The notes under the pieces are model-generated. The model was not told the origin of the DNA and did not search any database. It saw only the letters and a list, made by a program, of their open reading frames with translations. Below, in pieces: positions 4,508 through 43,200 of a DNA stretch of 64,000 nt (position 1 is its first letter; each line of letters begins with the position of its first letter). Source of the stretch: Cinnamomum chago (Eukaryota; Streptophyta; Magnoliopsida; Laurales; Lauraceae); assembly GCA_038049695.1 (NCBI GenBank), contig CP142455.1:24899501-24963500 (forward strand), read 5' to 3'. The position numbers and the translations under genes are program-made.

Positions 4508-7500
4508 TTAAGTAATAGGGAACAAAAAATTACAGAAGAGCTTAAGAGGTCTACCAGAAAAAGGCTTGTTAATACGCTTGAAAGAGACAGAAAGGAGCTC
4601 AGTCAGGTATAGATTGACCTTCGTCTGCGAGGCTCTAGAGTTCGAAAAAATAGCATCATTCCTGCAGTTTCATAAAGCAAAAGCAGATGAGAAGAAGATG
4701 GTAGAAACTCCTTTGCAGGCCAGAGTATCACTGTGGAGGGAAAGAGCTTGCCAGATCTTTGATGGAAGGAGAGGGCCATCAACAGCCAAACCAGCCTTGG
4801 AGAGAATCCGCTTCCATATGTCAGAGGAAGAAGAGATGCAGAGTAGACTCATGTTCTTGGAGACACAGGCTGCACCTAGAAGCCAGACTGATACCAGAGT
4901 GCTGAGCCCAAGCTTGAGAAGGGGTCTTACCATGCAGCAGCCTCCAGGCAAAGAAAGAGACCCTGGGTTACTGAATGGAGTTCCATACCAGAGGAGCCCA
5001 GTTCAATCAATAAGAAGAGTGGTTACTGGTTCTGATGATTTGCCAAGCTTCTTGGAGAGAGAGGCCTTGGTCCTGGTGGGAACTCCATTGCAGAGTGTCT
5101 TTAGAAGACAGGTCCAAGGAGAGGTGCTGGGTTGCTTACCGCAGGGAGGTAGCCGCTGCAACTGGAAGGTCTGGAGGAGTCGTCCATTGGGAACCATCCC
5201 AGAGAGAATGAAGCTTCTGGTTAGAAGGAAAATTGATAGAAGGGTATAGGGAGGTCATTCTACCTTCTTGCATCCAATTGTCATACCAGAAGTCGATTTG
5301 CTTACCATCTCCAACTTTCCACTTACTGCCAGAATGGATGTGATGAGCCAAATTCCTGATTTTGCTCCAAATACAAGATCCTGATTTGGAGGTGGAAGAA
5401 TGCCAGATGAAAGAATTTGGAAAGTACCTGCCGACCATCCAGTTGGCCCAAAGCGAATTGGAAGACATGGCCATCCAACCCAATTTGATGAAAGAGGCAG
5501 CATTTTGCTCACTGACACGCCTGATGCCCATGCCTCCTTCTTTGATGGGGAGAGTGATCGTGGCCCAGTTAATTTGGCTTCTTTTCTGCTTGGTTGCCCC
5601 CCCAGACCAAAGGGAATTCCTCATGAAAGTCTTCATATTGATGGACACTGACTTAGGAATAGGAAGAACCAAAGCAATGTGGATAGGCAAGCTGCTAAGC
5701 ACATGCCTCACTAGAGTCCTACAACTAGCAAGAGAGAGAGGCTGAGATTTCCAGCCAGATAGTTTGCGCAGGAATCTGTCAAGCAGGGAGGTGAAATGAT
5801 GTCTTCTTGGGGTGCCAATAATGAGAGGAGCTCCAAGGTAGAAAGAGTGGAGAGGTCTGTCCTGAATATTAGTGATGTCCAGAATTTGTCTTATCTTACT
5901 GGGGTTACATTTGCCAATGAAAAGTTTGCTCTTGTCCAAGTTAATGGTCTGGCCAGCACTGGACTGGTAATTAGAGATTACCTCCTTTAAGGCTAAGAGG
6001 CTCCTTTTGTGACTTTTGAGGAATAGAAGAATATCATCAGCATACATAAGATGGCAGGGGGTATTTGGAGTAGATGAGAGGGGAGAAATGGTGTTGTTAG
6101 AGACCAGACTATGGATGTTGAGGCTAAGAATTTCTTCAGCGAGGATAAATAGATAAGGGGATAGAGGGTCCCCTTGCGTTAAGCCGCAAGAGGAGTTGAA
6201 GAAACCATAAGGAGTTCTATTGATGAGGACAGAGCCTTTGGCTGTGCAGACACATTCTCTGATGAGACTAATCCACTTAGAGGAGAAACCAAAGAATTGA
6301 AGACATTTGAAGAGGAAGGGCCAGCTAAGTTTATCAAAAGCCTTGGAAATATCCAATTGCATACACAAAGTGCCACCTTTTAGGTTGGTATGGAGTTTTT
6401 GAAACAATTCATGAGCTAAAGGTATGTGTTGATGAATTGATCTGCCTTGGACAAAAGCCGCATGGTTAGGGGAAACAAGATGGGGAATGATCTTAGAAAG
6501 TCTGGAAGCCAGAATTTTAACAATGATTTTGTAGTTAAAGTTGAGGAGGCTAATAGGCCTATAGTCAGCAAAGGTGGTAGGGGAGGTGGATTTGGGGATC
6601 AGAGATAGGAAATAGGGTGTTGAAAGCACTATATAGCTTGCATGAGATGAAGAACCGTTGCATTGCTTTAACCCCAGAGGAGCCAATGATGTGCCAGGCA
6701 GCAGTGAAAAAATGGCCTGAGAAGCCATCCGGGCCTGGAGAGCTGTCTTTTTTAAGGGCAAAAACAGCTTTCCTAATCTCTACAGCATCAGGAGTTCTGG
6801 AGAGGAGGATGTTCATTTCTTCATTCACTTTGTTGCTGCCTACCCCAAAAAGGAAATCAGAGGGTACTGAGTGATAGGAATTAGCTATAGAGGAAAAGTG
6901 ATCCACTGCAAAGGACTGAACATCTTTTGGGTCCTCTACCCAGATACCATCTAATTGGATTTTGTCGATGCGGTTAACTACCCCTCTGGATTTGGCAGAG
7001 GCATGAAAGAAAGCAGTATTCCTATCTCCCTCATTTAGCCATCTGATTCTGGATTTTTGGCGCCAGTGAGTTTCTTGAAGATGGAGGCAGTTGTGGAGGG
7101 AAGCCTTAGCTTCAGCAAGAGAAAGGTGAAGAGAGGGGGTAGGACCAGCATCAAGGAGATCTTGAGCCTCTTGAACAAGCTTTTCTGCAGCTGCAACCTT
7201 AAGCCTGATATCACCAAAGACATTTTTGTTCCAACCTTTGAGGACCTGCTTCAAGTTTTTCAGGTTGGTAGCCAGCTCCTGCTGGTAATTGCCTGCAGAG
7301 TCTTGGTTCCAGGAGTCCACCACAAGATTGAGAAAATCAGGGTGTTGGATCCACATAGCTTCAAACTTGAAAGGAGCCATAGGAGCAGGAGGCCGTCTGT
7401 TGTGAGTGAGTAGCAAGGGGCAGTGATCAGAGGAAATCTTGGGCAGGTTGATGAGCTGAGGGTCGGAGGAAGTGGAGAGCTAGAGGTGGTTGCAGAGGGC

Positions 7501-8091
7501 TCTGTCCAGCCTAGTTGTGACATAACTGGTTCCCTTGCGGTTGTTGGACCAGGTATATTTATTGCCTGAGAAACCCATGTCCTGCAAGCCAGAGGAGAGA
7601 AACAACTGCTGGAATTCTAGATTGAGGTGGGAAGGCCTTACACTGTATTTCTCAGAGGCAGAGATGATGGAGTTGAAATCGCCCAACACACACCAGGGGC
7701 AGTTGGTGTTAGCCTAAGAGGAGAGGTAGCTCCACAGATCTCGTCTCTGGATATAGTTTGTTGATGCATAAATCCCTGTAAAAAGACAATTTGTGGCAGT
7801 AGAAGGGTTGATGAAAGAGATGGTCAGGAATTGGGGGGAGAAGTCAATGAGAGAAATACCAAGATTGGGATTGGATTTGAAGAAGCACCATATAGAGGCT
7901 GAAGAAAGGGGGTTGTTAGAGAAGAAACCATCATAGCCCAAGGATGAGAGGAGGGAGGGAGGAGGGGAGGCAGTCTTAGGTTCAGCAATAAAAATGATAT
8001 CAGGGGATTTTGAGGAAGCCAAGTGGCGGAGGGATCTAATGGTTGGGGAATTAGAAATTCCCCTGCAGTTCCAGTAGAGGACTTGGATCAT
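4508..8091 (-). pseudogene. LINE-A ORF2 (endonuclease-RT), broken
   Basis: This is the ORF2 relic of an L1-type LINE. The start ATG at 8091 (MIQVLYWNCRGISNSPTIRS) matches both sister copies and overlaps the ORF1 stop as ATGA. An APE-type endonuclease domain comes first (DIIFIAEP, then GDFNSI). The RT follows, with QLDISKAFDKLSWPF, the CGLTQGDPLSPYLF block and the catalytic YADD (CHLMYADDILLFL). The C-terminus ends near RPLKLFCNFLF with TAA at 4508-4510. In-frame stops (for example 7714-7716, 7480-7482 and 5136-5138) and at least one frameshift near 6.6 kb break it, so no full protein can be made. Confidence 0.9.
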
Positions 8092-8284
8092 TTGGAACTA
8101 GTTAGAGGGGGGGGGGGGGGCATTGGAGTTCCTTGCAGTTGGCCTGGAATTGGAACTGTCTATTTTTCTTTTGGGTTTGGGTTTCTTTTTCTTGGAGTAG
8201 GGGGTGAGATCCACAACTAGGGAGATACCAGAGTTGTGAGAGATAGCAGGCGTCTGGGCAGAAGCTACACCTGTATCAGAGTTT

Positions 8285-12378: not shown

Positions 12379-15323
12379 TCACATGATAGAGCAATTACTT
12401 GGGTTAGGTTCGTCAACGGTCTCATAATGTACAAAATATGGATGTCCATGGCATTGTGGTTGACATGTATGCTTCTCTTCCTTTTTCTCTTCCTTTTCCT
12501 CTTCCTTCTTTTCTTCTTTTTTCTCTTCTTTGGGCTTCACTTCTTCTACAATGACAAGATCTGCGTAGCCCACCTTCTTCCTCAACCTCTTGACTAAGCA
12601 AGCAGAATCGACTCCATCGCCGATGACGACAACCTGATCTTGCTCGTCGCCTTCTATGGCGACCGAAATGACACCTGCATCACAACAACATAAATTAAGT
12701 CCAATGACATGTATTTTTGTTAGGGGGACACAGCTTAAAAGTACTTGGGAATTCTCTGTGTTACTTAACTCAGGTGAGTCTTATTGAACACATGGTTCGA
12801 CTTGGTCAGACTCATTCCCACTAATGTTACTTGGTGATTTATTGAGCTGACTTGACTCGCTCCAGTTTTGGTGAGTTAAAATGATCGAGACTTTAAAACA
12901 ATGCTGGGGATAAACGTTTAAGAAATGAACTTATGTTGCCATTAGTATGGTGCTGAAGAATGCTAACCACCCCATTTATGCCATGGCGATCCCTCCTTTG
13001 CTTGATCGTAGCTCATATCAGTCACCCCCCTCTATAGAAATTAGCAGAAGTTTTGCTCAAACTAAAGTGAAGCATAGTTGGGTAGATCAGGAATATATAG
13101 GAAATTTAACTAATTATTTCTAACATATGTCATTCTTAGCAAACTTTGAGCTAATTCATATGAAGCTTTGTGTGCAAAATGAGAAGCTTTGATCCAGCAA
13201 AGGCGGATCCAATGCAGGTGAGATCAGGTACAAGTTCTCATTTGCATCTTACTAATGACAGTGACATGAGCCCAAGCCCAAATAAAGAGTGGCTACAATA
13301 TTATGACGACGGTCATGGTTTATAATCTGTGAAACCTGACTTGAAAGGCCATTACCAACTAACTCGGGCAGGTTTGACTATGTACTCTAATTGTCCTCAA
13401 CAAGACTCGACTGACTCGCTTGAGTCGGAACCCAAGAACCCGATGAACTGAGTTAATTTAGTCAACTGCCACTGATTAAAGCTAACAAAATGAGTTTTAT
13501 AACTACGCCATGATTGGCACACATTGCCAGATGAAGTCCATAGAATTGCTTTAACTATTCCATTGTAGGTCCTATGTAATGTTCCCTAAATTAATCAAAG
13601 ATCATTCCATGTCAGTTAAATAATTTAATCAATTCTTGAAGTCAAGTAATAATGTAACATTGAATCCATTGCCACATGGGAGGAAACGTGTAAGCAAGTC
13701 TCCCATGTGCTTATAGATTTACAATATGCAAGGATCCACATCCTAGCTACTTTCCTTTCAAGATTGGACATGTGGTAGGATTTGGGGGTACTAACGTTTC
13801 GGCTGTCAAATAAATGGCAATGAAATGGATAATTAAAAAATACACTTTTTTTAGCGCCCATTTTATTGCCTTGGATTTGACACATGGTGGTGTCCCATAC
13901 ACTTAGTTTTAACTGTTGGCAGACACGTAATTGATAGATCTTCGGATTGAGCATACACAGAAGCACAGCAGTTGTGTATGCAAAAAAAATAAAAAAAAAT
14001 GACTCTATTTAATTAGAGAAATAATTACAAGAAGATGACTTTTTTTTTTTTAACGGCAACGCAAAAAATATATTAAGATGAGAGAAAACTTACACCAATA
14101 AAGGAAGAAAAAGAAAAATCATATCTAGGTATGGAAGACATATACCCAAACACAAGATACAGTTATATAAGAGAAGCCTCCAAATGCCAAAATTCTAATA
14201 GCTTGTTGCTTGGCCAAAGCATCTGCGATCAAATTAGCTGAGCTCGTCACAAGATGATATTTTGATTAGGTCTAGTCTAACCCACGTGTGTGGGAGCCAC
14301 ATTTCAAAATGGCAAGCTCTAGCATCACAATCTACTATAGTTGATCGATGGGCCTCAAAATCACCATTAGAGGAGCGATATTAACTGTTAAATTAAACCA
14401 CAGCTTTGATTAATGGAGATAATCATGCTCTAAGATATCCTTCCATTCAAGGATGAACATTAAGTTGATTTTCAAGTTCAGTGTCTCTCATAGCGTTAGG
14501 TTGAGATCCAACTCCAAGGGTTCATCACTGATTTTTTCAGAATCTACTATTATTAGAGGGGGATGCGGGAGAGAGAGTGATGTTCTCCTTTCATTTAGGT
14601 TCACCCGTATGTTAAATTGTTAATTACCTTTATTCGTGCACTCATTATTAGAATTTGCTTAACCTTACCATCCAAATGCATAAAATCAAACTGTCAATAG
14701 GCAATGAAATAAAATAGAATGAGATTAGAAGTAATGACCATCTACAACTGCAGCTATCTCCATAGCCTTCGATCGGCATTTCTGACAATGCATATCCACC
14801 TTAATCACTATCTTTTGCTGCACATACAAAATTAGTGAAAAACTGAGTTCTTAAGCATGAGCCTTGATATCCTTAAATAAACTGAACTTCTCAGATGACC
14901 CATATCAAATATAACTTCCCAATCAAATGAACTAATGGCACCCAATTTACATTTGGGTTTTGTTTGTGGAGACATTTTTTAAGAAAAAAAAATGAAAATA
15001 ATTTCCTAAAGAGAACAATTTTATCCGATGATTCTTTGTTTCCACAAATTTTAATTTAAGATAAAACATTTCCATAATTTTCTTCCATAAGAAGATTCAG
15101 ACCCAAAGAGGTAGAGAAACTTTTTTCAGTCTCATGCACAATTGGCTATCGAGAGTTTTTTGCTGCACCTAACAACAAAAATGGAAAACTTGGGAAATGA
15201 AGTCTTTGTATTTGAAATTTTCATGAAAAATGAAATCACATTGGAAAAAAGATTCTGTGGAAAACTGTTGAGCATGAATATACCCTTGGAAATGCCAACT
15301 ATGTTAGAATGGTATACCTTCAT
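12379..15323 (-). CDS. HIPP1: heavy-metal-associated isoprenylated plant protein
   Basis: Three exons can be read on the minus strand. Exon 1 is 15323-15318 (ATGAAG, then GTATAC). Exon 2 is 14817-14739 (79 nt after a TGTGCAG acceptor, ending at GATG before GT). Exon 3 is 12674-12379. The product is 126 aa and starts MKQKIVIKVDMHCQKCRSKA. Residues 1-70 form an HMA fold with the metal site MHCQKC, and the block KRLRKKVGYADLVIVEEVK closes the domain. A Lys/Glu repeat linker follows (about residues 77-95). The protein ends NCSIM, a CaaX box for farnesylation that would tether it to membranes. HIPPs bind heavy metals or act as metallochaperones. The small HMA type with this MKQKIVIKV start is the group used as bait in rice Pik-1/RGA5 immune receptors and targeted by blast effectors (family knowledge). 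No breaks are seen. It is paralogous to HIPP2. Confidence 0.92.
14041..14262 (-). mobile_element. LINE 3' fragment with RNase H end, in HIPP1 intron 2
   Basis: Read on the minus strand, 14262 to about 14130 encodes SSANLIADALAKQQA. This is the typical C-terminal RNase H motif (N-x2-AD-x-LAK) of plant LINE ORF2 proteins. A short 3' UTR and an oligo(A) tail follow (T-run at 14041-14051). It is a dead-on-arrival 5'-truncated copy of a LINE family unlike LINE-A/B/C, which lack RNase H. Possible target repeats ACAAGAAGATGA and CACAAGATGATA are weak. The rest of HIPP1 intron 2 (12675-14738) holds no other gene. Confidence 0.6.
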
Positions 15324-19627: not shown

Positions 19628-20153
19628 TCTCAAAACTTGAACTTTTAAAGAAATAGGAAGCTAAAAGAAATTCTAAAAATAAGACAGTATATAAATAAAA
19701 TATTTATATATGACATCCCGTGCCTGATCCAACACATGGATGCCAATTAACTTCGTTTCGTTATCTCGTCTAACAGTACGATGACGATGAAATAGGATAC
19801 ATCAGCAATTGCGTCACTTGCTGACCTTCCTCTTGGAAGAAATGTGGTCACCAAGAAGAGCTATTTACAACAAGGTCCCCTACCTTTTTAGATTATCTAA
19901 AAAAAGCTCTTATATTTTATTTTTTGTATAAATGCCTCTTTCATATGATGATAAAACAATTTACTATTAGTTGTAATGATATCACAAAGATTTCCGTTTA
20001 GCAAACTCACTAATTCATTAATTCACATTAGATGGGCTACTTGAATACAAGATGAAGAAGGGAGGTATGGCAATTGAAAGGTTTGGAAGTGGATAAAGAA
20101 AATATATAATATTAATTCCATCAAATGATGTTCGCCCTAAGTTCTAGGCCACC
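19628..20153. other. Intergenic, no gene seen
   Basis: AT-rich DNA between the hAT and the CACTA element. No recognisable coding or RNA feature. Confidence 0.5.
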
Positions 20154-20184
20154 AAACACTACAAGAAAAATCATTTTTCGCAGC

Positions 20185-20580
20185 AAATATTCCGCGACGT
20201 TTTGAAATTTTGTCACTAAATGTTGTTTTTCGCGACGAAAAATTCATTTCGTCGCCTAAAACAAAAACACAAATTATTTAACGACGATAATTTTCAATTG
20301 ACGCTAAATATTGTCGCGAAAAGTTTGGCGCCAAAAAATGGAGTTGGCGCCAGGAAGAAGTAAAAATTTTCCGACAAAATTATTTATTTGGCGACGAATT
20401 TTTTTCGTCGGTAAATCATTTACACCATATTTTATTAAAAAAAATTTCACGACAAAAATATGTCGTCGCCGAATTCCCTAAAAATAATCCACTACGAAAA
20501 TATTTCGTCGCAAAATGCATAAAATTTGGGCGCGCGATTTAGCTTCGCGGTTCATTTTTCAGAACCATGGGCGACGAAAT
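20185..20580. repeat. CACTA left subterminal repeat array
   Basis: Words such as GCGACG, TCGTCGC, CGCGACGAAA and GGCGACGAA recur roughly every 20-40 bp in both orientations. In En/Spm such arrays are the binding sites of the TnpA-type protein (family knowledge). Confidence 0.8.
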
Positions 20581-21625
20581 GAAACGACATTACACCCTTC
20601 ACGCTAAACTCGTCCATTTTTCTCACACCGGAACCAAGGCACAGCACCATCACCTCCACTCCATCACCTCCTCTCCCTCTCGACCTCGGCCCTCTCTCTC
20701 TTTCCATCTCGCAACCCCCTGCGCAGACCCATCTCAGAGGCAGCCCCCCTCTCCAGTCTCTCTGCTCTTCATCTCTCTCACGCCCGCGGACCGTCGCCCC
20801 TTCTTCCTCCACGCGCAGACCGCACCACCACCACCACCAGCGCAGAGCCCCATCATCTCTCCCTCTTCTCCCTCCACGCGCAGAACTCATCCCATTCACA
20901 GGTAAGAGCCTCTCTCCCAATTCTCTGCATCACCATCGCATCCCTCAGCACTTCCCCTGCACGCCAGCGCACCCTCTCCTCTCATAGAAATCTCCAGATC
21001 TCCAAGAAGGATATCTGTTTATATTTTATTTTATTTTTTATTCTGGGTTTTTCTTTTTGTTGTTTTTGTGGGGTTTTGTAATTATTATTTTTATTTTTTT
21101 TTGGATGAGAGATTGGATTTGGGGGGATGTTTCTGTGGGTAGGTTCTACTATTTGTGGGGTTTTGAGGAATAGGAGTTTGAGTTTTTGTGTATTAGGGAT
21201 TTGATTTTATTAGAAGATCTGAGTTGGGGTGGTGTATTTTCCGGTTGACATCGGAGAAGAAGAAGCAGAAGCCAGAGCAGTGAGCAGCGGTAAGACCTAC
21301 TTCGCTGCATTTTCCGCTCTTCGATCTTTGATCTTTGAGATCTCTCTTCCCCAAAACCCTAATCTTTGTTTGGAGCTTCCAGCAGCTTTGAGGTTTCCGA
21401 TCTGGTCGATATCGGAGAATACCTACTTCCCTGCATTTTTTTTTATCTTCGACACTTTGCTTACGTTAGGCCTAGGTCTGAGAGTTTTCTTGAGTTAATG
21501 AAATAGTAGTTTATGTATTCAACCTTCTATAACCAACTTCTTTGGGTATATGAAATTATTGTATCCATGGTGGTGGTATGCCAGCTGAGGAAGTGTTATT
21601 GAGTGATGCTTGTTCCTTTTAATAG

Positions 21626-24600
21626 GATGATACTGCTTTTGAGAAGCAGAGTGCTCTATTTGCTTTGGCAGTCTCGGATGTTGTATTGATAAACATGTAA
21701 GTTTGGTAACATTTGGATTTGGTATGGATGGAGAAGAGTGTTCTCTGGAAGTACTGATTAAAAGTAAATTATCTAGGTGGTGTCATGATATTGGTAGGGA
21801 GCAAGCAGCAAATAAGCCACTTCTAAAGACGGTTTTTCAGGTGATTCTGTTTTCAGTTCTCCTTTCAACTGAAAGTGCTGATGTGTGCAATGCTTATTTT
21901 ATACAAACCATCTTTCTATCTATCGCAGGTCATGACGCGCCTATTCAGTCCTCGCAAAACAACTTTGTTATTTGTCATTCGTGATAAAACGAAGGTTTGC
22001 ATTCTTTTGTAGTATTTTTTGTTCGAAAGAAATGTTTTTCCATTTTGGTTTTATCCCTAGTGTGTCCTTTTCCAGCAAATTTATGAATTGTTGCATCATG
22101 ACTCTTCATCAAAAGAAAATAAAATTGCTGCTCAGAGTTCATTCCTATTTAACGTTTTCCATGCAGACCCCACTTCAGCATTTAGAACCTATTCTAAGGG
22201 AAGACATTCAAAAGGGGAATTCTACATTTTGAATTCTTTTGAATGATTCTACATTTGCAGTGCTATGTGGCCTTTCTTGTATCTGCTGAGTTGTCATTAA
22301 TCATGATCACATTATTGCTGTAGATTTGGGATACAGTATCCAAACCCCAGACTCACAAGGATACTCTACTTAGTGAATATTTTAGGGTGAGCTGTCAGTT
22401 ATACATAATTGAGCCTGGTTATACATAGTTGATCACTCTTCTTTTCTTTTTTTTTTCCCTCTCTGAAGTATGTGGTTTTTTATTTTGAAGGTGGAGGTGA
22501 CAGCTTTGTCCAGTTATGAAGGACAGTTCAAGCAGGAGGTATGAGACCAAATGAAACAGCAAAAGTTTGAATATTCAAGACTTTGCTTGAGCACTAACAT
22601 GTGTTAGTTTAGCTTTGAGTAAAATGTATCATGGTGTCCTGTTTATAGTTGTGCATTTGATGCAAGCAAGCAATCTGCCAAGTAGCTAGGGTCTGGATGC
22701 ATTTTGCACCGTAACATGATTAAAGTAGTTTCTTTCTTTCTTTCTTTTTTTCATTTTTTACTTTGAGTCATATTTCATGCATTCAATGATGTCTGATTGG
22801 CATGAAACTGGGTGAGTTCAAGTTTGTGCAATTTTGAGAAGTATTGGCGAAGATATGGTCCGCTTTCTGTTATGTTATGAGTTATGATTTTAGGATATTT
22901 TATTTGTTTGGTATTTGAATGTTTGAGTTGAATGAAAACATCTCTAACTTTATGGTAAGACGAGAGAAAAGGTAAGAGTTACATAAGAAGATCAATTTGC
23001 TTTAGTTTTTCTAGCAAAAAAGTTTTGCTTTATTGTAAAAACAATTCTATGATTTATTGTATAGAGAAAGTTTGAGAAGTTAACCCACCCCAGTACATTG
23101 ATCATTCTTCAGTTTTAACTGCTCAATTCTTTCTAAAATTGTGTAATTCGAGTTTCTTGGATTCGATGAGTCAATATGCCGGGCAACGATATTGGTAATA
23201 TGGAAGATATGAGGTTCTGGAGTATATTGGGGATCACATTCAAGAAATTTGTGCTAATGGTAATAATATCATTTCTATTGATCTTAAGAAAAAGATGTTA
23301 AAGAGTTAAAGATGTGGCGATACAAGGATAGTGATGGTGGAGCACTTTGGAGGTCTTTGTTTGCCTCAGAACTTGTGATAGGAGGTGCACCAAATTTGAG
23401 AACCTTGTTTAATGAGGCAGGAGACGTTATTGATGTTTTTGTTTTGGTAAATAGGAACAACATAAAATCTATAGGGTTCACGTTGTAAGGTATGGGAGTT
23501 GGAACAAAAGATAAAGCTCTTTGGACAATTGAGAGGATTTTTGGCTGAGCTCTTTCTGTACTTTCATCTTAGAAACCAGTACAAGGTGTAACACAGGTGA
23601 TTTGTTGGGAAACTGATTCTAATAAAGGAGGTGGAACTTAAGACACCTGCTCATCCTACAATGGAGAAATCTGGAAAAGTGAGGTTGAGAAAGCAGTATA
23701 GATTGAGAAAGGAGAATGAAGGAAATTTGGAAGTTGTGTAAGCATCAAAGTTACTATCCAACCTTAAAAGCTTCCCTTCAACAAACTTTTGATGCAAGTG
23801 GTTATATTTCAGATGATAGTTATCATCATGATCGTGGTGCCCAAGGATTGACATCTATAAATCAGCTTAGGCCACACCGAAACATTGATGTAATTGGTGT
23901 TCTTCTCAGTCATGTCGGTGTGAATCAATCAATATACGTTCGATACGACCCGTCTGTTGGTTGATACACACTCCTTGAACAACCTACCCTAGTTTTGGGT
24001 TGTGAAAGTTTGGGGAAAGGCTTTTTTGACATTTCTAGCACAAGAAATTTAAAGAAATATAGGAAATCAAAGAAATGAAGAATCAAAGTTGATATGCAAA
24101 GCATTAGCTTGGGGGTTATCTTTGAGGCAAGGAAAAACAATCAAGAATAAGTGAAATATGTTGGTGTTTTGGTTTGTTTTGGATATGAATGAGTTCCAAA
24201 TCATAAGAGGAGCATGTTTTCAGCATCTGTCTTGGTTTGTGGTCTGTATTGTAGTTATATTGATTTAACTATAAAATGCATGTGGGCATGTGCATGGTGG
24301 CATGAGGGTAATATGCAAGTATATATGTAAGTTTATTTCATAGGTATCCATTGATGAAAAGTTTGCAAATGGTAGTATGAACCGTGAGTGTTGTCTTTCA
24401 TAGGTTCGACAGCTGAGGCAGCGCTTTTCCAATTCTATTGCTCCTGGAGGGCTTGCTGGTGACAGACGGGGTGTCGTTACTGCCTCGGGATTTTCTTTCA
24501 GTGCACAACAGATATGGAAAGTTATAAAAGAGAATGAAAACCTTGACCTTCCTGCTCACAAGGTGTTCAGCTTTGAATTTCACCTGCTTTGTGGCAAGCA

Positions 24601-25488
24601 ACCACGGTCTAGTGTTTGAGACATTCTCTTATTTCCTATGTTATTTATTTAGGTGATGGTTGCCGCCGTTCGCTGTGAAGAGATTTCAAATGAAAAGTTC
24701 AGTCGTCTGATCTCTGATGAGGTAGCCATTTTCTGTCTGCCTAGCTGCAGTTTTTATTTTATTTTATTGGATCAATTGGAAAATTGTTTAAAGAATATAC
24801 TAACCCTTGCATGTGCTTTAGCGTTTGTTGGAGTTGGAGGCAGCTGTTCAATCTAATCCAGTATCAGGCTTTGGAAAAAAGCTTAGCTCCATTTTAGATA
24901 CTTATCTATCAGAGTAAGGCCACTTCTCCTTTTCTTCTTTGTATAGAATTATTTGTTTGCGCCAAGTAATGTGTAATATGAGAGATGTCATAAGCTGTTC
25001 TAGGATGTTTGAAACAGATTTTTAAGGTGCAAAAAGTAATTATATGGGTGGAGAGAATAGAATTACATCAAACATCCTTGTGTATCAGTTCGTGCACAAG
25101 CAGAATGGCAATCCATACTGTCTATGTAATATAGCCTCAGCCATGTAAATGTGCTTTTGCTTCTGAAAGGTCCATTGAAACATATAACTGAATATATTCT
25201 TTTTGGTTTACAGTTCAAGCACTTCTACCTGTTTCGAAATTTGGTTGTTGTCTTGCTAAGTATTGGGCTTATTGCTCAATTGCTCATTAACTAGATTGAA
25301 TTCTTTTTATCACCTAAGTTCGTATCGCCTTTGCTAGATTGTAAGTTCCTCCTAATACTTAAATACACTGATATCAAATATTCAACTGGAAATGAGTCAT
25401 TGTTGCATTTTTGGTGTTCACACAAACAACTGCAGAACCATCCAACTCTAACTACAAATATGATATGGAGACTGTATACTTTGATGAG
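21626..25488 (+). pseudogene. RHD3: Captured RHD3/Sey1/atlastin-type GTPase gene fragment
   Basis: RHD3 is a dynamin-like GTPase that fuses ER membranes. Nine exons read in order: 21626-21696, 21777-21840, 21929-21994, 22167-22214, 22324-22386, 22491-22538, 24404-24562, 24653-24721, 24822-24913. Hallmarks are [45 protein letters not shown] (the RD G4 motif), [15 protein letters not shown] and NPVSGFGKKLSSIL. A remnant YDMETVYFDE lies at 25459-25488. All exons are open and phases agree, about 226 codons. Missing are the start, the P-loop, switch regions and DxxG before EDDTAFE, and everything after FDE, including the helical bundle and membrane hairpin. The donor after 22214 reads GG instead of GT, and the acceptor before 25459 looks lost. 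A 9-nt loss sits near SSYEGQFKQE. It cannot encode an active GTPase. Confidence 0.93.
23390..23550 (+). pseudogene. RRM-like coding fragment inside the captured RHD3 intron
   Basis: Within the 1.9-kb intron 22539-24403, the frame at 23393 reads NLRTLFNEAGDVIDVFVLVN and then KSIGFTL. This resembles the helix 1-strand 2-RNP1 part of an RNA-recognition motif. After a frame change, VRYGSW and then DKALWTIERIFG fit the rest of RNP1 and helix 2. It is a broken piece, perhaps from an RRM-bearing LINE ORF1 or a host RNA-binding protein. Similarity is by eye only. Confidence 0.4.
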
Positions 25489-27204
25489 CTTCTGCTTCTA
25501 ATATTTTCCATCCATTTGGCTTGAGATACTTTTATCCAATGTTCTAGCTCATAATTTTCTTGCTTTCTCTCTGACTGATGAGTGCCAGATCATTGTAGGC
25601 AACATAGACTGCAGGACTTCATCTTGGATATTGGTTATAAAGATCCAAAATCGAGGCTAATTTATAAGTAAGGACTCAACATAGACCCTTGGTTCAATCC
25701 TAGTCTAATTGAAAACTTAGTCATCACCCTACATAGTTCCTAAGCTCTTTACTGGCCCTTCATATATGTTTTGTATATTAGAATATACCCATTAGTGTAA
25801 TCTTTTTTCTTTAGTGTTTTCCAAACTAATTAATATGTTTCTCTTAAAGTTGTATAAAGAAATGTAAATTTCATAAATTTTACAAATGAATTTAAAGAAG
25901 AATTAGTAAAATGACTGAAGCCAAAATCTGCAACAATTTAAAAGCATCTGAGGTCCTTCCAGACAAGTTCAAGAACCCATATGCACAAAGAGAGAACAGG
26001 GGCAGCCACATTTGGGGGATGTTTGAAAAATGCTGTATTGAAAGGACCATCAACAGTTCTTTGAAAAGGATATGATGTAGCATAAATAATCTATCGATCT
26101 GATATACTCAAGTGTATCATCGATTTGATACAGTCAAGATCATAACCACTCAAGTGTATCATTGATGTCATACAGGGACCATTTTTCATCATGACAAACT
26201 CTGGATATCAGCCTGTACCTGGCTTGATCAACTCCCATTCATGTCCCCTGGTTGGTCAATGCAATTGTTTGTTGCCTTTAGTTGTGTTAACCATTTTACA
26301 TATTTGGTGCAGAGAGGTGCCCCCACTGACCAAATATTCCTAGTGCGCCACGGCTCTTGCAAACATTTCCTACACTCAAATGTTGTGTCAGTGAGACAAC
26401 AAACCATAACCAATACTAGTATTCCGGGGGGCTCGGTGTAATGGTTAGCTCCAATTTTTTTCTAGGCCCAAAAACTTTACATCTTGTGTTTTATATTGCT
26501 CATACCCAGTTGCTATATTCTTATGCTTTAATAGTTTCCTTTGTTGGTTATGATACAAAGAATGTACCACAAAGCAAACTATTAATAGTTTCGTCCTAAC
26601 ATACTTTGCACTCAAATCCTAACATCTTTTTATGTACCATAGATTGGGACTAGAAACAGTGCAGAGAACTGATTTCAAACAGGGGTTAGTAGAGAGGCCA
26701 TCATTTTCTCTGAGAGTTCTGTTATTAGATAAGAGTAAACTCTCTTGAGGCTTTTTATTATTATTTTTTTTATGTTGTGTTGTTTGGTGTTTGGATTGAT
26801 GGGTTCTTCTTACTTTGTGGGCATTGCATCAGTATAACTTCCATTTCACCATGGACATCACATACTCATATTAACTGTTAGGATAGTGATTTAGCTTTGT
26901 GATCTTGAATCAACTTGTTTTGCTTCAAGTTCACTTTTATTTTTTAATTTTCCCAGGCTTTTATTTTGTCTCACTTTGCTTTTGATTCCCATGTTTAATT
27001 CCTAACATATATATTTTTTTTTGTACCATAGGTTGAGATTGGAGATCAATGTAATATAGGCCAATTGCTTGAACATCTTTTTGTTTTTCATAAGAATATT
27101 GTACTTGCACTATTTTGGATGCTACATTTTTACTTAAATTAGTGACGAGGACGTGACTAAACTTGTGGGTTGGATTTAATAGTTATATGTTTCCTAATAT
27201 GTTG

Positions 27205-27365
27205 AAGGAGCAGGTGTACATTTTTTATTAGTTAAATGAGCCGACCTTATTATACATTTTGTTTGAGTTGAATGAGTAGGTTTTATTGTACATTTTATTT
27301 TTGTTGAATGGGAAGGTTTTATTATACATTTTATTTTAGTTGAATGAGCAGGTTTTATTATATTC
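27205..27365. repeat. 36-40-bp tandem repeat, about four copies
   Basis: The unit GTTGAATGAGCAGGTTTTAT followed by TATACATTTTATTTTA is repeated about four times with some divergence. It sits just inside the right subterminal array of the CACTA element. Confidence 0.8.
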
Positions 27366-27424
27366 AACATAAAGGAGGTTTTTGAGGTGGCATGCAGTGA
27401 TTTATAAAATAAATATATTATTTT

Positions 27425-28020
27425 TAGCAACGAATTTTATTTGTCGCCTAATAGAAATAAATATATCTTTTCATATTATCCCGACATATATAATTTGTCG
27501 CCTAAGAGAATTTGTGGCAATGTTAAATATTTGGCGACGAAATAAGGTGATTGCCTAATGTCTAAAAACTATGCGCGACAAAACTAATTCGTCGCTTATT
27601 ATAACTTATGGCAATTTATACACTATTTAGCGATAATATAGTTTTGTCGGTAAAAGATATATTTTAGCGACGATTCCGTTTTGTCGCCAAATTCCTTTTC
27701 ATCGTGTTTTATCCTTTTTTTTTTGCAATGAATTATAGATATTTAGCGACAAAAAAATCCTTTTTACCGACATAATGTGTTGTCGCAAAAAATTGATATT
27801 TGGCGACGATAACATGTTGACGCAGAAAATTGATATTTGGCGACGATATCATGTTGTCGCAAAAAAATTGATATTTGGCGACGATTAGTTGTGATCGTCG
27901 GCAAAAAAATTCACCGACGCCTAATAGGCGACGAACTGGCTACGAAACCATTTTCGTCGCAGAAAATATTGGGCGACGATTTTCAGATTTTCTGCGACAA
28001 AAATTTTCGTCGCGAAAAAT
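27425..28020. repeat. CACTA right subterminal repeat array
   Basis: Repeated GGCGACGA, TTGTCGC, TCGTCGC and ATTTAGCGAC words occur in both orientations, mirroring the left array. Three near-identical units (ATATTTGGCGACGAT...) occur at about 27800-27890. Confidence 0.8.
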
Positions 28021-28287
28021 GATTTTTGTTGTAGTGAAAGTTTAAAGGCATATATTGCCTAAACTCCTTTCTAATAAAATTCAATGGTGGATGATGTCCA
28101 AAATACAACAAAATGGGGTCAATTTCAATTAAGGGTCCCAATGTATGTGATTTTTTTTTTTTTGCTAAAGGGTCATTTGAATTAGAAAAAGAAAGAGGAG
28201 AAACAGAGGCAAGACGCCCACAAGAGAGAAGAGCAGAGAACTACAACCAGGGAGGAGAAACCTACAAACCAAAAGCACAAAGCCAGC

Positions 28288-31200
28288 TTAAGGATTGGAA
28301 AACAAAAAATTACAGAAGCTTTTAAGAGGTCTACCAGAGAAGGGCTTTGAAAGTTTCTTGAGAGAATCAGAGAGGAGCTCCAACAGGAAACGGGTGACCT
28401 TCACCTTGGAGACACTGATATTGTTGAAGATGGCTTCATTTCTGCATTTCCAAAGGACATAAGCTGTAGAGAAGAAGATGACAGCTACACCTTTGCAAGC
28501 AAGTCTATCACTGTTGCAGGAGAGGGCTTGCCAGATCTTGGAGGGGAGAAGAGGGCCAGCAACTGCTGTTCCAGCTGAGGACAGAATCCAGTTCCAGATG
28601 TCTAAGGAGAAAGAACAGAGGAAGAACAGATGGAGAGAAGACTCTACGGCTTGGGAGCATAGACTGCATCTGGAGGCCAGAGTGATGCCACAGTGTTGAA
28701 GCCAGAGCTGAGAGGGAGTTTTACCATGCATGAGCCTCCAGGCAAAGGAAGAAACTCTCGGCTGCTGAAATTGGTTCCAGACCAAGGGGGCCCAATTCGA
28801 CCAATAGGCAGAGGAGATCCTGGCTCTGACCATATTCCAAGCTTCTTTGGAAGAGAGGCTATGGTCCTCCTGAGAGTTCCATAGGAGAGAATCTTTGGAT
28901 AGAGGATCCAAGGAAAGGAGCTGGATGCCTTCTTGCAGAGTGGCTGCCACGTCACTGGGAACATCAGGGGGAGACAGCCACTGATTTCCATCCCAGAGGG
29001 AAAGGAGGTTCTGGTTGGGGCGGAAGTGGAGGGAAGGAAACTGAGAAGCCAAGCTACCTGCTTCCATCCAATTATCATGCCATAGGTTAACCAGGCTGCC
29101 ATCTCCAATTCTCCAGGAGCTCCCAGATTGGATGAAGTGAGCTGAGGATCTGATTTTCCTCCAAATACAGGAGCCAACTTTGGAAGAGGAGGGATGCCAG
29201 AGAGAAGTTCTTGGGAAGTATCTACTAATCATCCATCTAGCCCATAGGGAATTTGACGTGGAGGCAGTCCAGCCCAACTTAATGAAAGAAGCAGCATTTT
29301 GCTCATGAATTCTTCTGATTCCCAGACCTCCTTCTGAAGTAGGGAGGGTGACTGTTGCCCAGTTGACTTGACTCCTATTCTGCCTGAGAGCTCCCCCTGA
29401 CCAGAGAAAGTTTCTCATAATCGTCTCCAAGTTAGCACAGATTGACTTAGGAAGAGGCAGGATCATGGCAGTGTGGATTGGCAGGCTACTGAGAACGTGC
29501 CTTACCAGAATTCTTCTTCCAGCAAAGGATAAAAATTTTGACTTCCAGCCTGAGAGCTTGCTAATAAATCTGTCCAACAGAGAGGAGAAGTGCTGTCTTC
29601 TAGGGGTGCCAATAATCATAGGAACTCCGAGGTAGGAAGAGCTTAGCGGTCTATCTTGAATACTTGTAATGTCCAGAATTTGCCTCCTCTTCCTGTGATT
29701 GCATTTGCCAATGAACAGTTTACTTTTTTCCAAGTTAATGGATTGACCAGCATTTGCTTGATAATTTGAGATGACCTCTTTCAAGGCTAAGAGGCTCCTT
29801 TTATGGGTTTTAAGGAACAAAAGGATATCATCAGCATACAAAAGGTGGCATGGGGTATTTGGAACAGAGGATAGAGGAAGGATGGAACTATTAGAAACCA
29901 GATTTTGGATGTTGAGGCTAAAAATTTCTTCAGCAAGAATGAATAGGTAAGGGGATAGAGGGTCCCCTTGCCTTAATCCACAAGAAGAGCTGAAAAAGCC
30001 GCAAGGCGATCTGTTAATGAGGACGGAGCCTTTAGTAGTACACACACATTCTTTAATGAGGTTGATCCATTTGGGAGAGAAACCAAAGAAGTGGAGAGAT
30101 TTGAATAGGAATGGCCAGCTAAGCTTATCGAAAGCTTTTGAGATGTCCAATTGCAAACACATGGTGCCACCTTTTTGCTTGGAGTGGAGCTTTTGAAACA
30201 GCTCATGAGCAAGAGCAATATGTTGGTGGATAGACCTACCCTTGACAAAGGCTGCCTGGTTGGGGGAGACCAAGAGAGGAATAATCTGAGAAAGCCTAGA
30301 GGCCAAAATTTTAGCTATAATTTTGTAGGTGAAGTTAAGGAGACTGATAGGCCTGAAGTCAGCAAAGGAGGAAGGGGGGTTGCATTTAGGGATTAGGGAA
30401 AGAAAGTAGGAATTGGATGCTCTATATAACTTGCCTGAGTTGAAAAAATGCTGGGTAGCCTTGACTACAGAAGAACCAATGATGTGCCAAGAAGTGGTGA
30501 AGAAGAGGCCAGAGAAACCATCCGGACCAGGAGAACTATCTTTTTTAAGACCAAAGACAGCACTTCTGATCTCCTCTGCATCAGGAGTTTTGGAAAGACT
30601 GAAGTTAATATCTGGAGGAACTTTGTTGCTGTCTAACCTGAACAGGCCTTCGGAGGGATCAGAGTAGCTTTGGTTAGCAACTGAAGAGAAGTGGTCCACT
30701 GCCAAAGACTTAATAGCAGTCTGATCGTCCACCCACAAGCCTGCAGAGATGATTTTATCAATGCGGTTCACCACGCCTCTAGATTTGGCTGAAGCATGGA
30801 AGAAGGCCGTGTTCCTGTCACCATCTTACAGCCAGCTAATCCTAGACTTCTGACGCCAGTGTATTTCTTGAAGGTGGAGATAATTGTGGAGGGTAGCCTT
30901 GGCATTTGAAAGGGAGAGGTGGAGAGAAGGAGAAGGGTCAGCATCATGGAGGGCTTGGATCTCAAGAACATCCTTTTCAGCTTCAGCAATCCTAATCCTA
31001 ATGTCGCCAAAGACATTCTTGTTCCAATCTTTGAGAATCTGCTTCAGATTTTTAAGGTTGGAAGCAAGATCCTGTTGGAAGTTACCTGAGGAGGCTTGGT
31101 TCCAGGAGGCAGCAACAAGGGGAAGGAATTCAGGGTGATGGGTCCACATGGCATCAAATTTGAAAGGAGCCTTGGCAGCTAGAGGGCGCCTGGAATGGGT

Positions 31201-31885
31201 GAGAAGCAAAGGGCAGTGATCAGAGGAGAGCTTAGGAAGGTGAGAGAGCAGGGGATCAGAGGAGCAGGAGAGCCAGGAGGAGTTGCAAAGAGCCCTATCA
31301 AGCCTAGCTGCTACAAAGCTGGTCCCCTTGCGGTTATTTGACCAGGTGAATTTGTTCCCTGAGAAGCCCATGTCCTGCAGATCAGAGGACGTTAACAGCT
31401 GCTGGAAATCTAGGTTGAGACGAGTAGGATTGAGACTAAATTTCTCAGAGGCAGACAAGATGGAGTTGAAGTCACCAATTACACACCAGGGACTAGAGGT
31501 GTTATGCTGAGAAGAGAGGTAAGTCCAGAGATCTCTTCTCTGGATATAGTTAGTGGAGGCATAAATGCCTGTGAGGAGGCAGAGAGAGGCAAAAGAGGGA
31601 CTGATAAAGGAAATAGTCAGGAATTGGGAGGAGTAATTAATCAGAGAAATGCCGAGATTTGAATGGGATTTAAAGAAACACCAAATGGAGGCAGGAGAGG
31701 AGGGATTGTTAGAGAGAAAGCCATCATAACCCAAGGATGAGAGGAGGGAGGCGGGGGGGGGAGGAAGTCTTAGGTTCAGCTAAGAAAATGATATCAGGAG
31801 AATTGGAGGAAACCAGGTGCCTAAGAGATCTAATGGTAGGGGAATTTGAGATACCCCTACAGTTCCAGAAGAGGACTTGGATCAT
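28288..31885 (-). CDS. LINE-B ORF2: endonuclease-reverse transcriptase
   Basis: This enzyme nicks target DNA and reverse-transcribes the LINE RNA at the nick. It starts MIQVLFWNCRGISNSPTIRS at 31885 and is about 1199 codons long. Domains in order are APE-type endonuclease (IGDFNSI, SSDHCPLLL), RT (QLDISKAFDKLSWPF, CGLRQGDPLSPYLF, catalytic YADD) and C-terminal zf-RVT (CSLCSQAVESSLHLFFLC). There is no RNase H. Two breaks are visible: a frameshift at the G-run near 31750, and an in-frame TAA at 30826-30828, where LINE-C has WLKEGDRN. The region 28288-30774 alone is an uninterrupted 828-codon RT part. Confidence 0.93.
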
Positions 31886-33769
31886 TTGGAACTATTTGGA
31901 AGGGAGGAGGGACCAATGAAACTCCTAGTAGCAGGCCTGGAAATAGAGCTGGCAGATTTTTTTTTTTTGGTTTTTGATTTCCTTTTATTGGAGTAGGGAG
32001 AGAGGTCCACAATTAAAGAGATGCCAGCATTAAGAGAAGGTTCAGGGGGCTAAGCAGGGACAATGACTGTATCTGAGGTAGAGCTTTGGAGAGGGAAGGA
32101 GGGGTCTGAGAGGGGGTAGCTATCCAGGATGGAGAAGGAGTTAGAAGTATCTAGAATTGGATCTGGAAATTTCTCCAGAATATCAAAGTCTAGGGGGGGT
32201 CAGCCAAATCCTGGAGGGGGTTAGCAAGACTGGTTTGAAAGGCAGGGCTAGAGCAGGGGATTTGGCCAGGGGAGGAGGTGGAGCAGGGAGTAGGACCTGG
32301 ATTCACAGTGGCGTTGGGAGGGTCTGAAGAGTGAGGGAAAGTAAAGCCAGGAGGAGCAGAGTTCTGGAGGGAGGGTAGAATAGCAGGGGGAGGGTTGGCG
32401 GAGAGGGGAGGAGATTGTTGGATGGGATTTACTGGGGAAGCCAAAGGAGGGTCCGAAGAGGCCAAGACTGAAACAGGGGGTCCAATACCTGGGACCAGAG
32501 AGGAAGCAGGGGCAGGGAAGCTAGAAGGGGGTTGGCCTAAAATGCCTGGACTAAGCAGGGAACTGGGATTATTGGGGATATAAGGTTTAGCTCCAGAATT
32601 GCAGAGCTGCGCCGAGTGGCCTGTGGAAAGACATTGAGAACAAGGAAGGTTTTCATAAGAGATAGAAAGAGTAATTTTGGATTCGCCTTCAAGCTCCACT
32701 TGAATCTCTGAGGGCTTAGGACCAGACAGGTCGAGCCTCACAAGGATCCTGGCAAAGGTAAGAAGCTTTTGAGAGGCTGTGATATCATCCAGCTTGATAG
32801 GGGAGCCAATGGAGCTAGCTAGAGAAAAGAGGATGTTAGAGCTCCAGCAATGATAAGGGATACCATGAATACGAATCCAGACTGGGTGGAACGATGGCCA
32901 TGAGGAGAGATCTTGACCAGGCGACCAGGGGATGATTTGGAGTTTTCTAGCTTGCAGGAGAGTAGGACCCTTGGAGATGGCAATATCTCTGTCCTCCTTG
33001 GAAGCAAATCTAAATAAGAAGGAACCCTTATCCGTAAGGGAAATTAGGCAAGGCTTAGATAGATTCCACTTGGAATTAACCTGGGCAGTGAGCCATTCAA
33101 CTGTAGGTCTATTCCCAAAAAATTTACCTATAGCTGCATTGGAGAAGGAGGCTTTACTAGGTCCAATCAGAGATGAGGGGATCTTCATAGAAAGGAGACC
33201 ATCTATTATGGAGGAAGGGGGGAAATCCGAAGGAGATAGGGGTGTAGATTCAGGGAAAAGGGATAACCAGGGTTTGTGAATGATGGGAGGTTGAAGCTGA
33301 CTGGTAGGAACGGTTTGAAAAGCCTGAGGGTTGGAGAGGAGCGACATGAGATCTGAGGGAAGACAGAAATGAGGGGGGACCGGGTCTGGAGGTTTGGGAG
33401 GAAGAAGGGTTTGCTCACCTGGAGACTTACCTTTAGCTGAGAGGATGATGCCAGAGAGGTGGTGGTGGAGCATTTCCAGTTGGTTGATGTCCCTGCTGGA
33501 AGGGGATGGAGGGGGAGGAATAGCTGCAGCTGAGCTGGAATCATTTGCAGGAGAGGAGCTGAAGATCTGGGAGGAGTGTTCTGTCCGAGCCAGAAGAGAA
33601 TGGGGGGGAGCTGCCGAGTTTCCCAAGGAGGGGATCAACAGCGAAGGGGGATTTAGGGAGCTGGAGGTATGGGTCGAGGGGACTGGACAACTAAGGGGGG
33701 GGGGGGGGAATCAGAGGAGGAGGAGGACGGAGGGGGAGGGTGGCTGAGGAAAGGGGGGAACGCTACCAT
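31882..33769 (-). CDS. LINE-B ORF1: nucleic-acid-binding protein (DUF4283, zinc knuckle)
   Basis: ORF1 proteins of plant L1 elements coat the LINE RNA. The probable start is MVAFPPFLSHPPPP at 33769. A proline/serine-rich N-terminus is followed by a DUF4283-like domain (VEWLTAQVNSKWNL, then FHPVWIRIHGIPYH). A CX2CX4HX4C knuckle follows (CSQCLSTGHSAQLC, about 32600-32643), then a second proline-rich region and a Lys-rich tail. Two frame changes occur at C-homopolymers (33695-33708 and near 32192). The longest uninterrupted part is 32190-33638 (482 codons). The final TGA overlaps the ORF2 ATG as ATGA. Confidence 0.85.
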
Positions 33770-40238: not shown

Positions 40239-43200
40239 TCTTTCCACCAGAACTCTGCTCCCCGAGGTCTCACCACCCCTAACTCTACAGCCACTTCCAA
40301 CCCCACCTCCATCCCTGCTCTCATCCCCTGTTCCAACCCTGCCCCCCAATCCTGTCTTGTTGACTCCACCAAAATCTCTGAAGACCCTCCTTTAGACTTT
40401 GATATTCTGGAAAAATTTCCAGAACAAATTATTGATACCTCTAACTCCTTCTCCATCCTGGAAAGCTGTCCTCTTTTAGATCCCTCCACTTTCCCTCTCC
40501 CTAACTCTAGGAATTCAGACTCAGCTGAGGAAACTGACCAGTTTCCTGATTTCTCCCAAAATGCTGGCATCTCCTTAGTAGTGGACCTCTCTCCCTACTC
40601 TAAGAAAAAGAAATAAAAAATAAAAAAGAAATCAGCCAGAACCACCTCTAGGCCTACTACTAGGAGCTCCAATGGTCCCTCTTCCCTCCTTACTAGTTCC
40701 AAATGATCCAAGTCCTCTACTGGAACTGTAGGGTTATCTCCAATTCCCCAACCATTAGATCCCTTCGCCACTTGGTTTCTTCTAATTCCCCTGATATTAT
40801 TTTCATAGCTGAACCTATGACTGCCTCCCCTCCCCCCTCCCTCCTCTCCTCTTTGGGCTATGATGGTTTCTTCTCTAGCAATTCCTCCTCTCCGGCTTCT
40901 ATTTGGTGTTTTTTTAAATCTCATTCTAACCTTGGCATCTCTCTTACTCAATTCTCCTCCCAATTTCTGACCATTTCCTTTACCATTCCCTCTACTGCTT
41001 CCAACTGTCTCCTCACAGGGATATATGCCTCCACTAATTATCTCCACAGAAGAGACCTATGGAGCTACCTCTCTTCTCAGTCCAGTACAAATTGTCCCTG
41101 GTGTGCAATTGGTGATTTCAACTCCATCACTTCTGCCTCCGAGAAATTCAGTCTCAAGCCTTCTCGCCTCAACCTTGATTTCCAGCAGCTGCTCATCTCC
41201 ACTGGATTGCAGGACATGGGATTCTCTGGGAATAAATTCACCTGGTCCAACAATCGCCAGGGGACTAGCTATGTTGCAGCAAGGCTGGATAGAGCTCTCT
41301 GCAATCTTCCCTGGCTCTCCTACTCTACTGATCCCCTGCTCGCCCGCTCTACTGATCCCCTGCTCGCCCACCTTCCCAAATTCTCTTCGGACCACTGCCC
41401 CCTGCTTCTCACCCACAGTAGGCAGCCTCTTGCTTCCATGGCCCCCTTCAAATTTGATGCAATGTGGATCCATCACCCAGATTTCCTTCAGCTCGTTGCT
41501 GACTCCTGGAACCAAGTTTCTACAGGAAATTACCAGCAGGAGCTTGCTGCCAACCTGAAAAACATGAAGCGTATCCTCAAAGGTTGGAATAAGAATGTCT
41601 TTGGTGACATCAGGCTCAGGATAGCAGAGGCAGAAAAGTCTGTTCTAGAGATCCAAGCTCTCCTTGATGATGGTCCAACTCCTTCTCTTCATCACTCTCT
41701 GGCTGAAGCCAAGGCTTCCCTTCACAACTGTCTCCACCTTCAAGAAATTCACTGGCGTCAGAAATCTAGAATTAGATGGTTGAAGGAGGGAGATAGAAAC
41801 ACAGCTTTCTTTCATGCTTCAGCAAAATCCAAAGGAGTTGTGAATCGTATAGATAAAATTCTATCAGCTGGCTCTTGGGTGGATGATCAGGCAGCTATCA
41901 AGTCTCTGGCTGTGGATCATTTCTCCTCTATTGCTAACTCAGACCACTCTGCTCCCTCTGATTTCCTGTTTGGGCTAGGCAGCAACAAAGTCTCCTTAGA
42001 TATGAACACCAGTCTCTCCAGACCTCCTGATGCAGAAGAAATCAGAAATGCAGTCTTTGCTCTTAAAAAAGACAGCTCTCCTGGTCCGGATGGCTTCTCT
42101 GGCCTCTTCTTCACTGCTACTTGGCACATTATTGGCCCTTCTGTGGTTAAGGCAACTCAGCACTTTTTCACTTCAGGCAAGTTATACAGAGCGTCCAACA
42201 CCTATTTTCTTACTCTGATCCCCAAAAGTAACTCCCCTTCCTCCTTTGCTGACTACAGGCCTATCAGCCTCCTAAACTTCACATACAAAATCATAGCCAA
42301 AATTTTGGCTTCCAGACTTTCTCAAATTATCACCCACCTGGTTTCTCCTAACCAGGCAGCCTTTGTCAAGGGTAGATCTATCCATCAACACATTGCCTTA
42401 GCCCATGAGCTGTTTCAAAAGCTCCATTCCAAGCTTAGTGGTGGCACCATGTGTTTGCAATTGGATATCTCCAAAGCTTTTGATAAGCTTAGCTGGCCTT
42501 TCCTTTTCAAATCCCTTCACTACTTTGGTTTCTCTTCCAAATGGATTAACCTCATTAGGGACTGTGTTTGCACTGCAAAAGGCTCCGTCCTCATTAACAG
42601 ATCTCCCTGCGGTTTTTTCAGCTCCTCTTGTGGGCTAAGGCAAGGGGACCCTCTATCCCCTTACCTATTCATTCTTGCTGAAGAAATCCTAAGCCTCAAC
42701 ATCCATAGCCTGGTTTCAAACAATACCATCTCCCCCCTCTCCTCTGTTCCTAACACCCCTTGCCATCTTTTGTATGCCGACGATATTCTTCTATTCCTCA
42801 AAGCCCATAAAAGGAGTCTCTTAGCCTTGAAGGAGGTAATCTCAAATTACCAAGTCAGTGCTGGCCAATCTATTAACTTGGACAAGAGCAAACTCTTCAT
42901 TGGCAAATGCAATCACAGGAAGAGAAGACTTATCTTGGACATCACCAATATCCAAGATAGACCTCTCCACTCTTCATATCTCGGAGCTCCTCTCACTGTT
43001 GGTATCCCCAGAAGACAACACTTCACCCCCCTGCTGGATAGATTCCTCAGCAAGCTCTCAGGCTGGAAATCAAAGCTTCTCTCCATTGCTGGTAGAAGGA
43101 TTTTGGTTAGGCATGTGCTCAGCAGTCTTCCAATCCACATTGCCATGGTTCTTCCTATCCCTAAGTCAATCTCTACTAACTTGGAGACTATCATGAGAAA

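Follow-up and report, generated by a model that had tools for sequence, protein, structure and literature searches.

The stretch analysed here, referred to as the window, comprises 64,000 nucleotides of the Cinnamomum chago genome (GenBank assembly GCA_038049695.1, contig CP142455.1, positions 24,899,501 to 24,963,500, forward strand), and at window positions 20157-28036 it contains a non-autonomous CACTA transposon that carries the middle part of a gene for an RHD3/Sey1-type GTPase, which acts in fusion of the endoplasmic reticulum. The element begins with CACTACAAG at 20157 and its last base is 28036. Its terminal inverted repeats (TIRs; 20157-20181 on the plus strand and 28012-28036 on the minus strand) are identical at 24 of 25 bases, with two matches in the window and none in 100 shuffles, and the inverted match of the two ends spans 35 nt at 86% identity. 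AAA flanks the element on both sides as a 3-bp target-site duplication (20154-20156 and 28037-28039). Subterminal arrays lie inside both TIRs, the left one (20182-20580) consisting of CGACGA/TCGTCG-type repeats and the right one occupying 27411-28011; 48 of the 49 CGACGA-type words between 19.6 and 28.6 kb are located in 20157-20580 or 27411-28036, and the other is at 20792. The observed/expected ratio of CpG is 2.76 at the left array (20157-20580), 2.50 at the right (27411-28036) and 0.20-0.61 in between. An earlier note, made from the sequence alone, had described a CACTA element with these ends, this duplication and two arrays, and the end comparison, shuffles, word counts and CpG counts confirm it. 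Inverted CACTA ends, a 3-bp duplication, subterminal repeats at both ends and multiple genomic sites place the element in the CACTA (En/Spm) superfamily, and as a non-autonomous member with host gene DNA aboard and its donor elsewhere, on contig C7, it is of the Pack-TYPE or Pack-CACTA kind.

Between the arrays, the gene DNA is set into the element's own chassis. On its left is a GC-rich leader (20581-21470, plus strand), native to the CACTA family and not RHD3, in which two GTAAGA donor-like sites were seen by eye. Next come six bases at the joint, alignable with neither the chassis nor the donor (21471-21476), and then the captured RHD3 segment (21477-25489, plus strand), which corresponds to C7:47692553-47697197 on the minus strand. 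On the right are a segment (25497-26025) that is 97-99% identical to nine places outside the window and its sister copy on contig C4, at least three of them near listed left ends, a stretch of chassis (26102-27215) that is 94-97% identical to other family members over long matches, and a 36-bp tandem repeat in 4.1 copies (27217-27362). No transposase family, Transposase_21/TNP2 included, was detected in any of the 94 open reading frames (ORFs) of at least 40 codons that overlap the element; non-autonomous CACTA members are without a transposase by definition. Other parts of the genome are rich in Transposase_21, and a genome search for the left end gave at least 40 matches (best 40 of 167 candidates).

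The cargo comes from an RHD3 gene with its introns kept, and comprises nine exons in full and a tenth that is truncated, all on the plus strand. Captured exon 1, which encodes DDTAFEKQ..., lies at 21626-21696 and is followed by exon 2 (21777-21840), exon 3 (21929-21994), exon 4 (22167-22214), exon 5 (22324-22386), exon 6 (22491-22538), exon 7 (24404-24562), exon 8 (24653-24721), exon 9 (24822-24913) and the remainder of exon 10 (25458-25489; YDMETVYFDE). The nine complete exons total 680 nt and form one open, in-phase frame without a single stop, whereas each of the other five has 9-20. Their product matched Pfam PF05879 (RHD3_GTPase) over profile positions 66-245 of 245 (E=2.1e-69; 234 bits against a cut-off of 42.4) and yeast SEY1 in PDB (E=4.4e-24), so that both the RHD3/Sey1 identity and the open frame proposed in the earlier note are borne out. 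The peptide of exons 7-9 with the ten residues of exon 10 gave a weak match to Sey1_3HB (E=0.052); the full exon 10 is present in the donor.

Several defects are carried by the window copy. Exon 4 has GG for its donor site (22215), as the earlier note had seen; the parent and all four other copies described below (C4, C12, C5b and C8) have GT there. That note had also suspected one damaged acceptor; an AA acceptor does exist (25456-25457; AG in the parent, C4 and C5b), and it belongs to the truncated tenth exon, which had not been listed, all nine listed exons having AG. In addition, the copy is missing nine bases of exon 6 in frame, a deletion in common with C4, and 578 bases of donor DNA from intron 9 at 25449/25450, and it has three private amino-acid changes. 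Donor exons before DDTAF and beyond part of exon 10 fall outside the captured stretch, among them those which we take to hold the first GTPase motifs, and the cargo does not comprise the early GTPase motifs, helical bundle and membrane anchor of a functional RHD3/SEY1 GTPase.

A degraded RRM-like relic in captured intron 6 (23288-23488, plus strand; weak, RRM_1 E=0.073) was considered as a second captured gene and rejected, as the donor-matching stretch includes it and it was thus carried passively. Weak Pfam matches of short ORFs (Imm27, SOP4, CsiD, VapE-like, FAST_1, ATP-synt_10 and others; best E 0.0018) were taken as chance. A comparison with Arabidopsis RHD3/RL1 sequences, in which 21 of 187 shared residues were changed, was set aside because the donor has most of these changes. 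Neither RHD3 nor a CACTA end was found in viral contigs.

Genome searches with two RHD3 blocks, followed by comparison of the matched stretches, identified the donor as a full-length RHD3 gene on contig C7 of the same genome (about 47682281-47698220, minus strand). Its exons were located by a tblastn search that used an Arabidopsis protein as the query. With introns included, C7 is 97.43% identical to window 21477-23554 and 97.47% to 23555-25449, and 95% identical to 25446-25489; its RHD3 exons continue beyond both sides of the captured stretch. The three other RHD3 genes of the genome (C1:15.93, C1:95.05 and C5:76.56 Mb) match in their exons only, at 76-85%. The segment was therefore captured as DNA, from C7 or a close ancestor, and the parent gene that matches over introns shows directly what retained introns had already led the earlier note to propose, namely that retroposition was not involved; the parent whose existence was to be checked is thus present as a full-length gene. 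At three exon sites the copies keep the residue of the other three host RHD3 genes where C7 itself has a replacement (V to I, I to M and A to S), so that in these copies an earlier state of the donor has survived. Copies and C7 also differ at a fourth site (G in the former, A in the latter), for which the direction of change could not be assigned.

The earlier note had suggested a search for other copies with the same ends, and four further RHD3 carriers were found, on C4 (46.149 Mb), C12 (21.403 Mb), C8 (39.990 Mb) and C5 (27.43 Mb, hereafter C5b, represented by its right end only). The target duplications are ATG/ATG at C12 and, if the element's last G has been lost, TTA/TTA at C4. The left joint with its six filler bases is identical base for base in the window, C4, C12 and C8. 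The right joints of C12 and C5b, the two that are undeleted, fall at the same position of the donor string (11461), farther downstream than in the window, and this common joint gives a length of about 5.3 kb for the original capture. Taken together, the same left joints and the same right joint point to one capture, followed by spread with deletions and exchange of ends. The window and C4 share the exon 10 break, the exon 6 deletion and two other sites; a tree that placed the window with C12 was dropped because all nine supporting sites lay in misaligned columns at 25451-25504. In the fetched stretch of C8 (39989923-39992590) the match continues only to about window 22662, and C8 differs from the window at 37 of 869 positions in the leader but at 7 of 1162 in the RHD3 part (Fisher 2.4e-8), which suggests that C8 probably acquired the left end of another family member in place of its own once the capture had taken place.

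Two further observations were made on these copies. In C4 (positions 4357-5150 of its stretch) intron 6 contains an insertion of about 0.8 kb with an 8-base flanking repeat (TGTGCATG) of the kind expected from a hAT-type insertion. C12:21.40 and C5:27.43 Mb have about 280 bases in common past the right RHD3 joint, with no match in the window or C4.

Divergence of exons and noncoding sequence was compared among five sequences (the donor, window, C4, C12 and C5b), with columns after window 25440 cut and a gap mask of 5 bases. No difference was found in any of the ten pairs (lowest p 0.065); window and C4 differ at 8 of 670 exon and 32 of 3158 noncoding positions, and window and C7 at 7 of 670 and 58 of 3147. 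Given this noncoding divergence from the donor, and 1.0-2.0% between the copies, capture occurred shortly before the spread. Changes in the exons private to one of the four copies number 10 nonsynonymous to 4 synonymous (exon site 22324, beside the C12 deletion, was left out), close to the neutral expectation of about 70-74% nonsynonymous (p 0.77-1.0). The frame is broken in three of the five carriers, C12 (17 nt), C5b (2 nt and large losses) and C8 (1 nt), and open in the window and C4. As the window copy has four private exon substitutions, the chance that none of them made a stop is about 0.86. The exons in the window thus appear to drift neutrally, and their frame is open because the capture is recent and few mutations have fallen in them. 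From the open frame the earlier note had argued for recent capture or some constraint; the former is supported, and the latter is not, the suggested comparison of exon substitutions having given what is expected without selection.

The chassis is not confined to RHD3 carriers. A search with the leader and joint (20581-21476) gave at least 41 matches (best 40 of 276 candidates), and at least 15 of these reach position 873 or beyond of the 896-base query. Four of these 15 are RHD3 carriers, and 11 are places that the RHD3 searches did not return; the latter match to within 20 bases of the point where the left 1.3 kb, a standard chassis, stops, and 10 of the 11 have a listed left end. The right segment is also common to the family, with at least 49 matches (best 40 of 230 candidates). 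Three elements were read across the joint, and in each the chassis breaks off at one common position (CTTACGTTAGG; a single base differs in C2) and gives way to other sequence, here called X in C2:99.58 and C9:23.34 Mb and Y in C9:51.60 Mb. X contains a 104-codon ORF that is plant-like by eye and was found at 17 places in the genome, eight of them in leader-matching elements when the lists were compared by eye; the ORF had no Pfam or PDB match at E 1. Its near-full matches number 15, at 82-100% identity, and 11 of the 15 are stop-free. The PDB matches of the Y peptide up to E 1 are all auxin response factors (ARFs), though weak (4 of 4, E 0.036-0.049). X and Y are likely host gene pieces, and one and the same chassis carries different pieces. 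It is conceivable, and we put it forward tentatively, that the chassis has a preferred loading point, with RHD3, X and ARF-like Y all starting within a few bases of window position ~21470 and cargo and ends being re-assorted; if so, the family would work as a modular shuttle whose cargo joint is fixed, and not be a set of accidental captures.

A piece of RHD3 around exon 5, in some cases reaching exon 6 (window 22132-22545, mostly 22314-22414), was observed at no fewer than 34 further places at 69-87% identity (best 40 of 52 candidates). Four of the six such places examined are copies, ~97-99.9% alike, of one repeat of more than 3.1 kb, which contains, besides decayed sequence, the region of the C7 lineage from exon 5 to exon 6, with intron 5 included, at 76-82%. 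No CACTA end within 2 mismatches was present in the six loci, and the repeat is apparently an older, separate capture of the C7-lineage gene by another repeat.

We consider it very probable that the window carries a non-autonomous Tpn1/Pack-CACTA-type element with a once-captured piece of the C7 RHD3 gene, which has spread as at least five copies and whose exons are neutral. A pre-existing chassis, made up of the ends, subterminal arrays, GC-rich leader and right-hand segment, would have taken up about 5.3 kb of the C7 gene as double-stranded DNA, from intron 3 to past exon 10, a single time. The most likely mode of loading is that the gene was being copied into the chassis in the course of break repair and the copying was interrupted, as suggested by the filler bases of the left joint and the lack of transposon ends at the donor. 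The composite would then have been moved, presumably by a transposase from elsewhere as none was found inside, and at least five copies would have arisen and lost pieces, at least one of them exchanging an end. The ends, duplication, donor, shared joints, sister copies and neutral pattern are all directly observed. Some points weigh on the other side. The capture step is reconstructed from joints that fit repair-type copying, and a model of two neighbouring insertions stays compatible with them. No autonomous partner was located, the nearest scored transposase domain (best 150 of 1658 candidates) being ~24 kb from any of the 40 listed left ends when the lists were compared by eye. As C8 has an exchanged end, recombination played a part in the history, which a simple tree does not describe. 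The initial counts had also suggested constraint, with fewer differences in exons than in noncoding sequence (p 0.003-0.04 in five of ten pairs), a deficit that was gone once the misaligned columns after 25440 were cut and a gap mask of 5 bases replaced that of 8. In the window, C4 and C12 the exons still have a nominally lower divergence from the donor than noncoding sequence (about 1.0% against 1.7-2.2%), in no case significantly, as a donor under selection would give.

The alternative closest to this history is that two neighbouring CACTA insertions flanked the gene piece and were mobilised as one, a model proposed for Pack-CACTA elements and supported in rice and maize according to the cited sections of PMC8903248. 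A search of 24.8 kb around the donor for the 25-base end, with up to 5 mismatches allowed, gave no match, and the left joint has filler, so that we think this route rather unlikely, although an end-free donor is also expected if the allele never had, or has lost, flanking insertions. Near-identity to the donor over ~4 kb raises another alternative, in which transcripts of the element, or read-through antisense, would give rise to small interfering RNAs (siRNAs) that lower expression of the C7 gene in trans; in maize, captured fragments are described in a review as siRNA reservoirs against donor genes (PMC13317346). Judged from sequence features this is improbable, as no RHD3 exon occurs in the 25 longest of 88 inverted pairs (20100-28100) and no Rfam match at the gathering threshold was found in the window. 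Still less credible is selection for the RHD3 frame, by which a shortened RHD3-like protein would help the element or the host. The nine exons are indeed open and in phase in the window and C4, and sense-oriented behind a leader with donor-like sites, but the 10 nonsynonymous to 4 synonymous changes among four copies, the like divergence of exons and introns, the broken carriers, the lost exon 4 donor and exon 10 acceptor and the absence from the capture of the exons presumed to hold the first GTPase motifs all speak against it, and the chance of escaping a stop was high. That the exons were at the site first, and that a CACTA element inserted around or next to them by coincidence, can be given practically no weight. 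The same joint of chassis and RHD3 occurs at three other places, with different duplications at C12 and C4, and no point was found in favour of such nesting, which the sister copies refute.

Elsewhere in the window there are three LINE-type (long interspersed nuclear element) retrotransposons (4360-8250, 28152-33710 and 40303-44458) that are 75-81% alike, with RVT_1, endonuclease, zf-RVT and DUF4283 in scanned ORFs of the second and third; the middle one lies ~113 bases from the element's AAA duplication. Pieces of a hAT transposase gene (zf-BED, DUF659 and Dimer_Tnp_hAT) occupy 54359-57580 on the minus strand. Two related minus-strand ORFs (12379-12780 and 49262-49876) have by eye a heavy-metal-associated (HIPP-type) look; they are 80% alike over 151 bases, and the two pieces scanned had no Pfam match up to 0.001.

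Among known systems, Tpn1 of Ipomoea nil (CACTA/En-Spm) comprises non-autonomous elements of ~7 kb with 3-bp AT-rich duplications and conserved TIRs and subterminal repeats, the interior being replaced by host gene pieces, and a chimeric transcript is reported (PMC5105172, in the sections cited). Membership of the Tpn1 family proper would call for its 28-bp TIR and its SRR sequence; the likeness to the window element is one of architecture only, and the cargo here is RHD3. The window family resembles Tpn1 also in that one chassis carries different cargo. Pack-CACTA and other Pack-TYPE elements of Arabidopsis, rice and maize likewise have CACTA ends around gene DNA, but those of rice and maize in the cited part of PMC8903248 have 5-nt duplications, whereas the window element has 3 bp, a full-length donor and no CACTA end near it. 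The soybean element Tgm-Express1, as described in the cited part of PMC1947982, is likewise a CACTA element (5.7 kb) with exons and introns of host genes; it lies in a gene intron and carries five unrelated gene pieces, whereas the window element carries pieces of ten exons of one gene. Literature searches found no paper joining 'ROOT HAIR DEFECTIVE 3' with CACTA, none with both among the papers listed for RHD3 or Pack-CACTA (20 of 313), and one unrelated paper for CACTA with capture and atlastin.

This is therefore a clear but ordinary gene capture, a well-resolved example of a kind already known. The case is complete to an unusual degree, with the donor, the joint, five carriers and relatives with other cargo all in one genome, and this set allows capture, spread and decay to be traced base by base. 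It also illustrates that an open multi-exon frame in a transposon can mislead gene annotation without any sign of selection.

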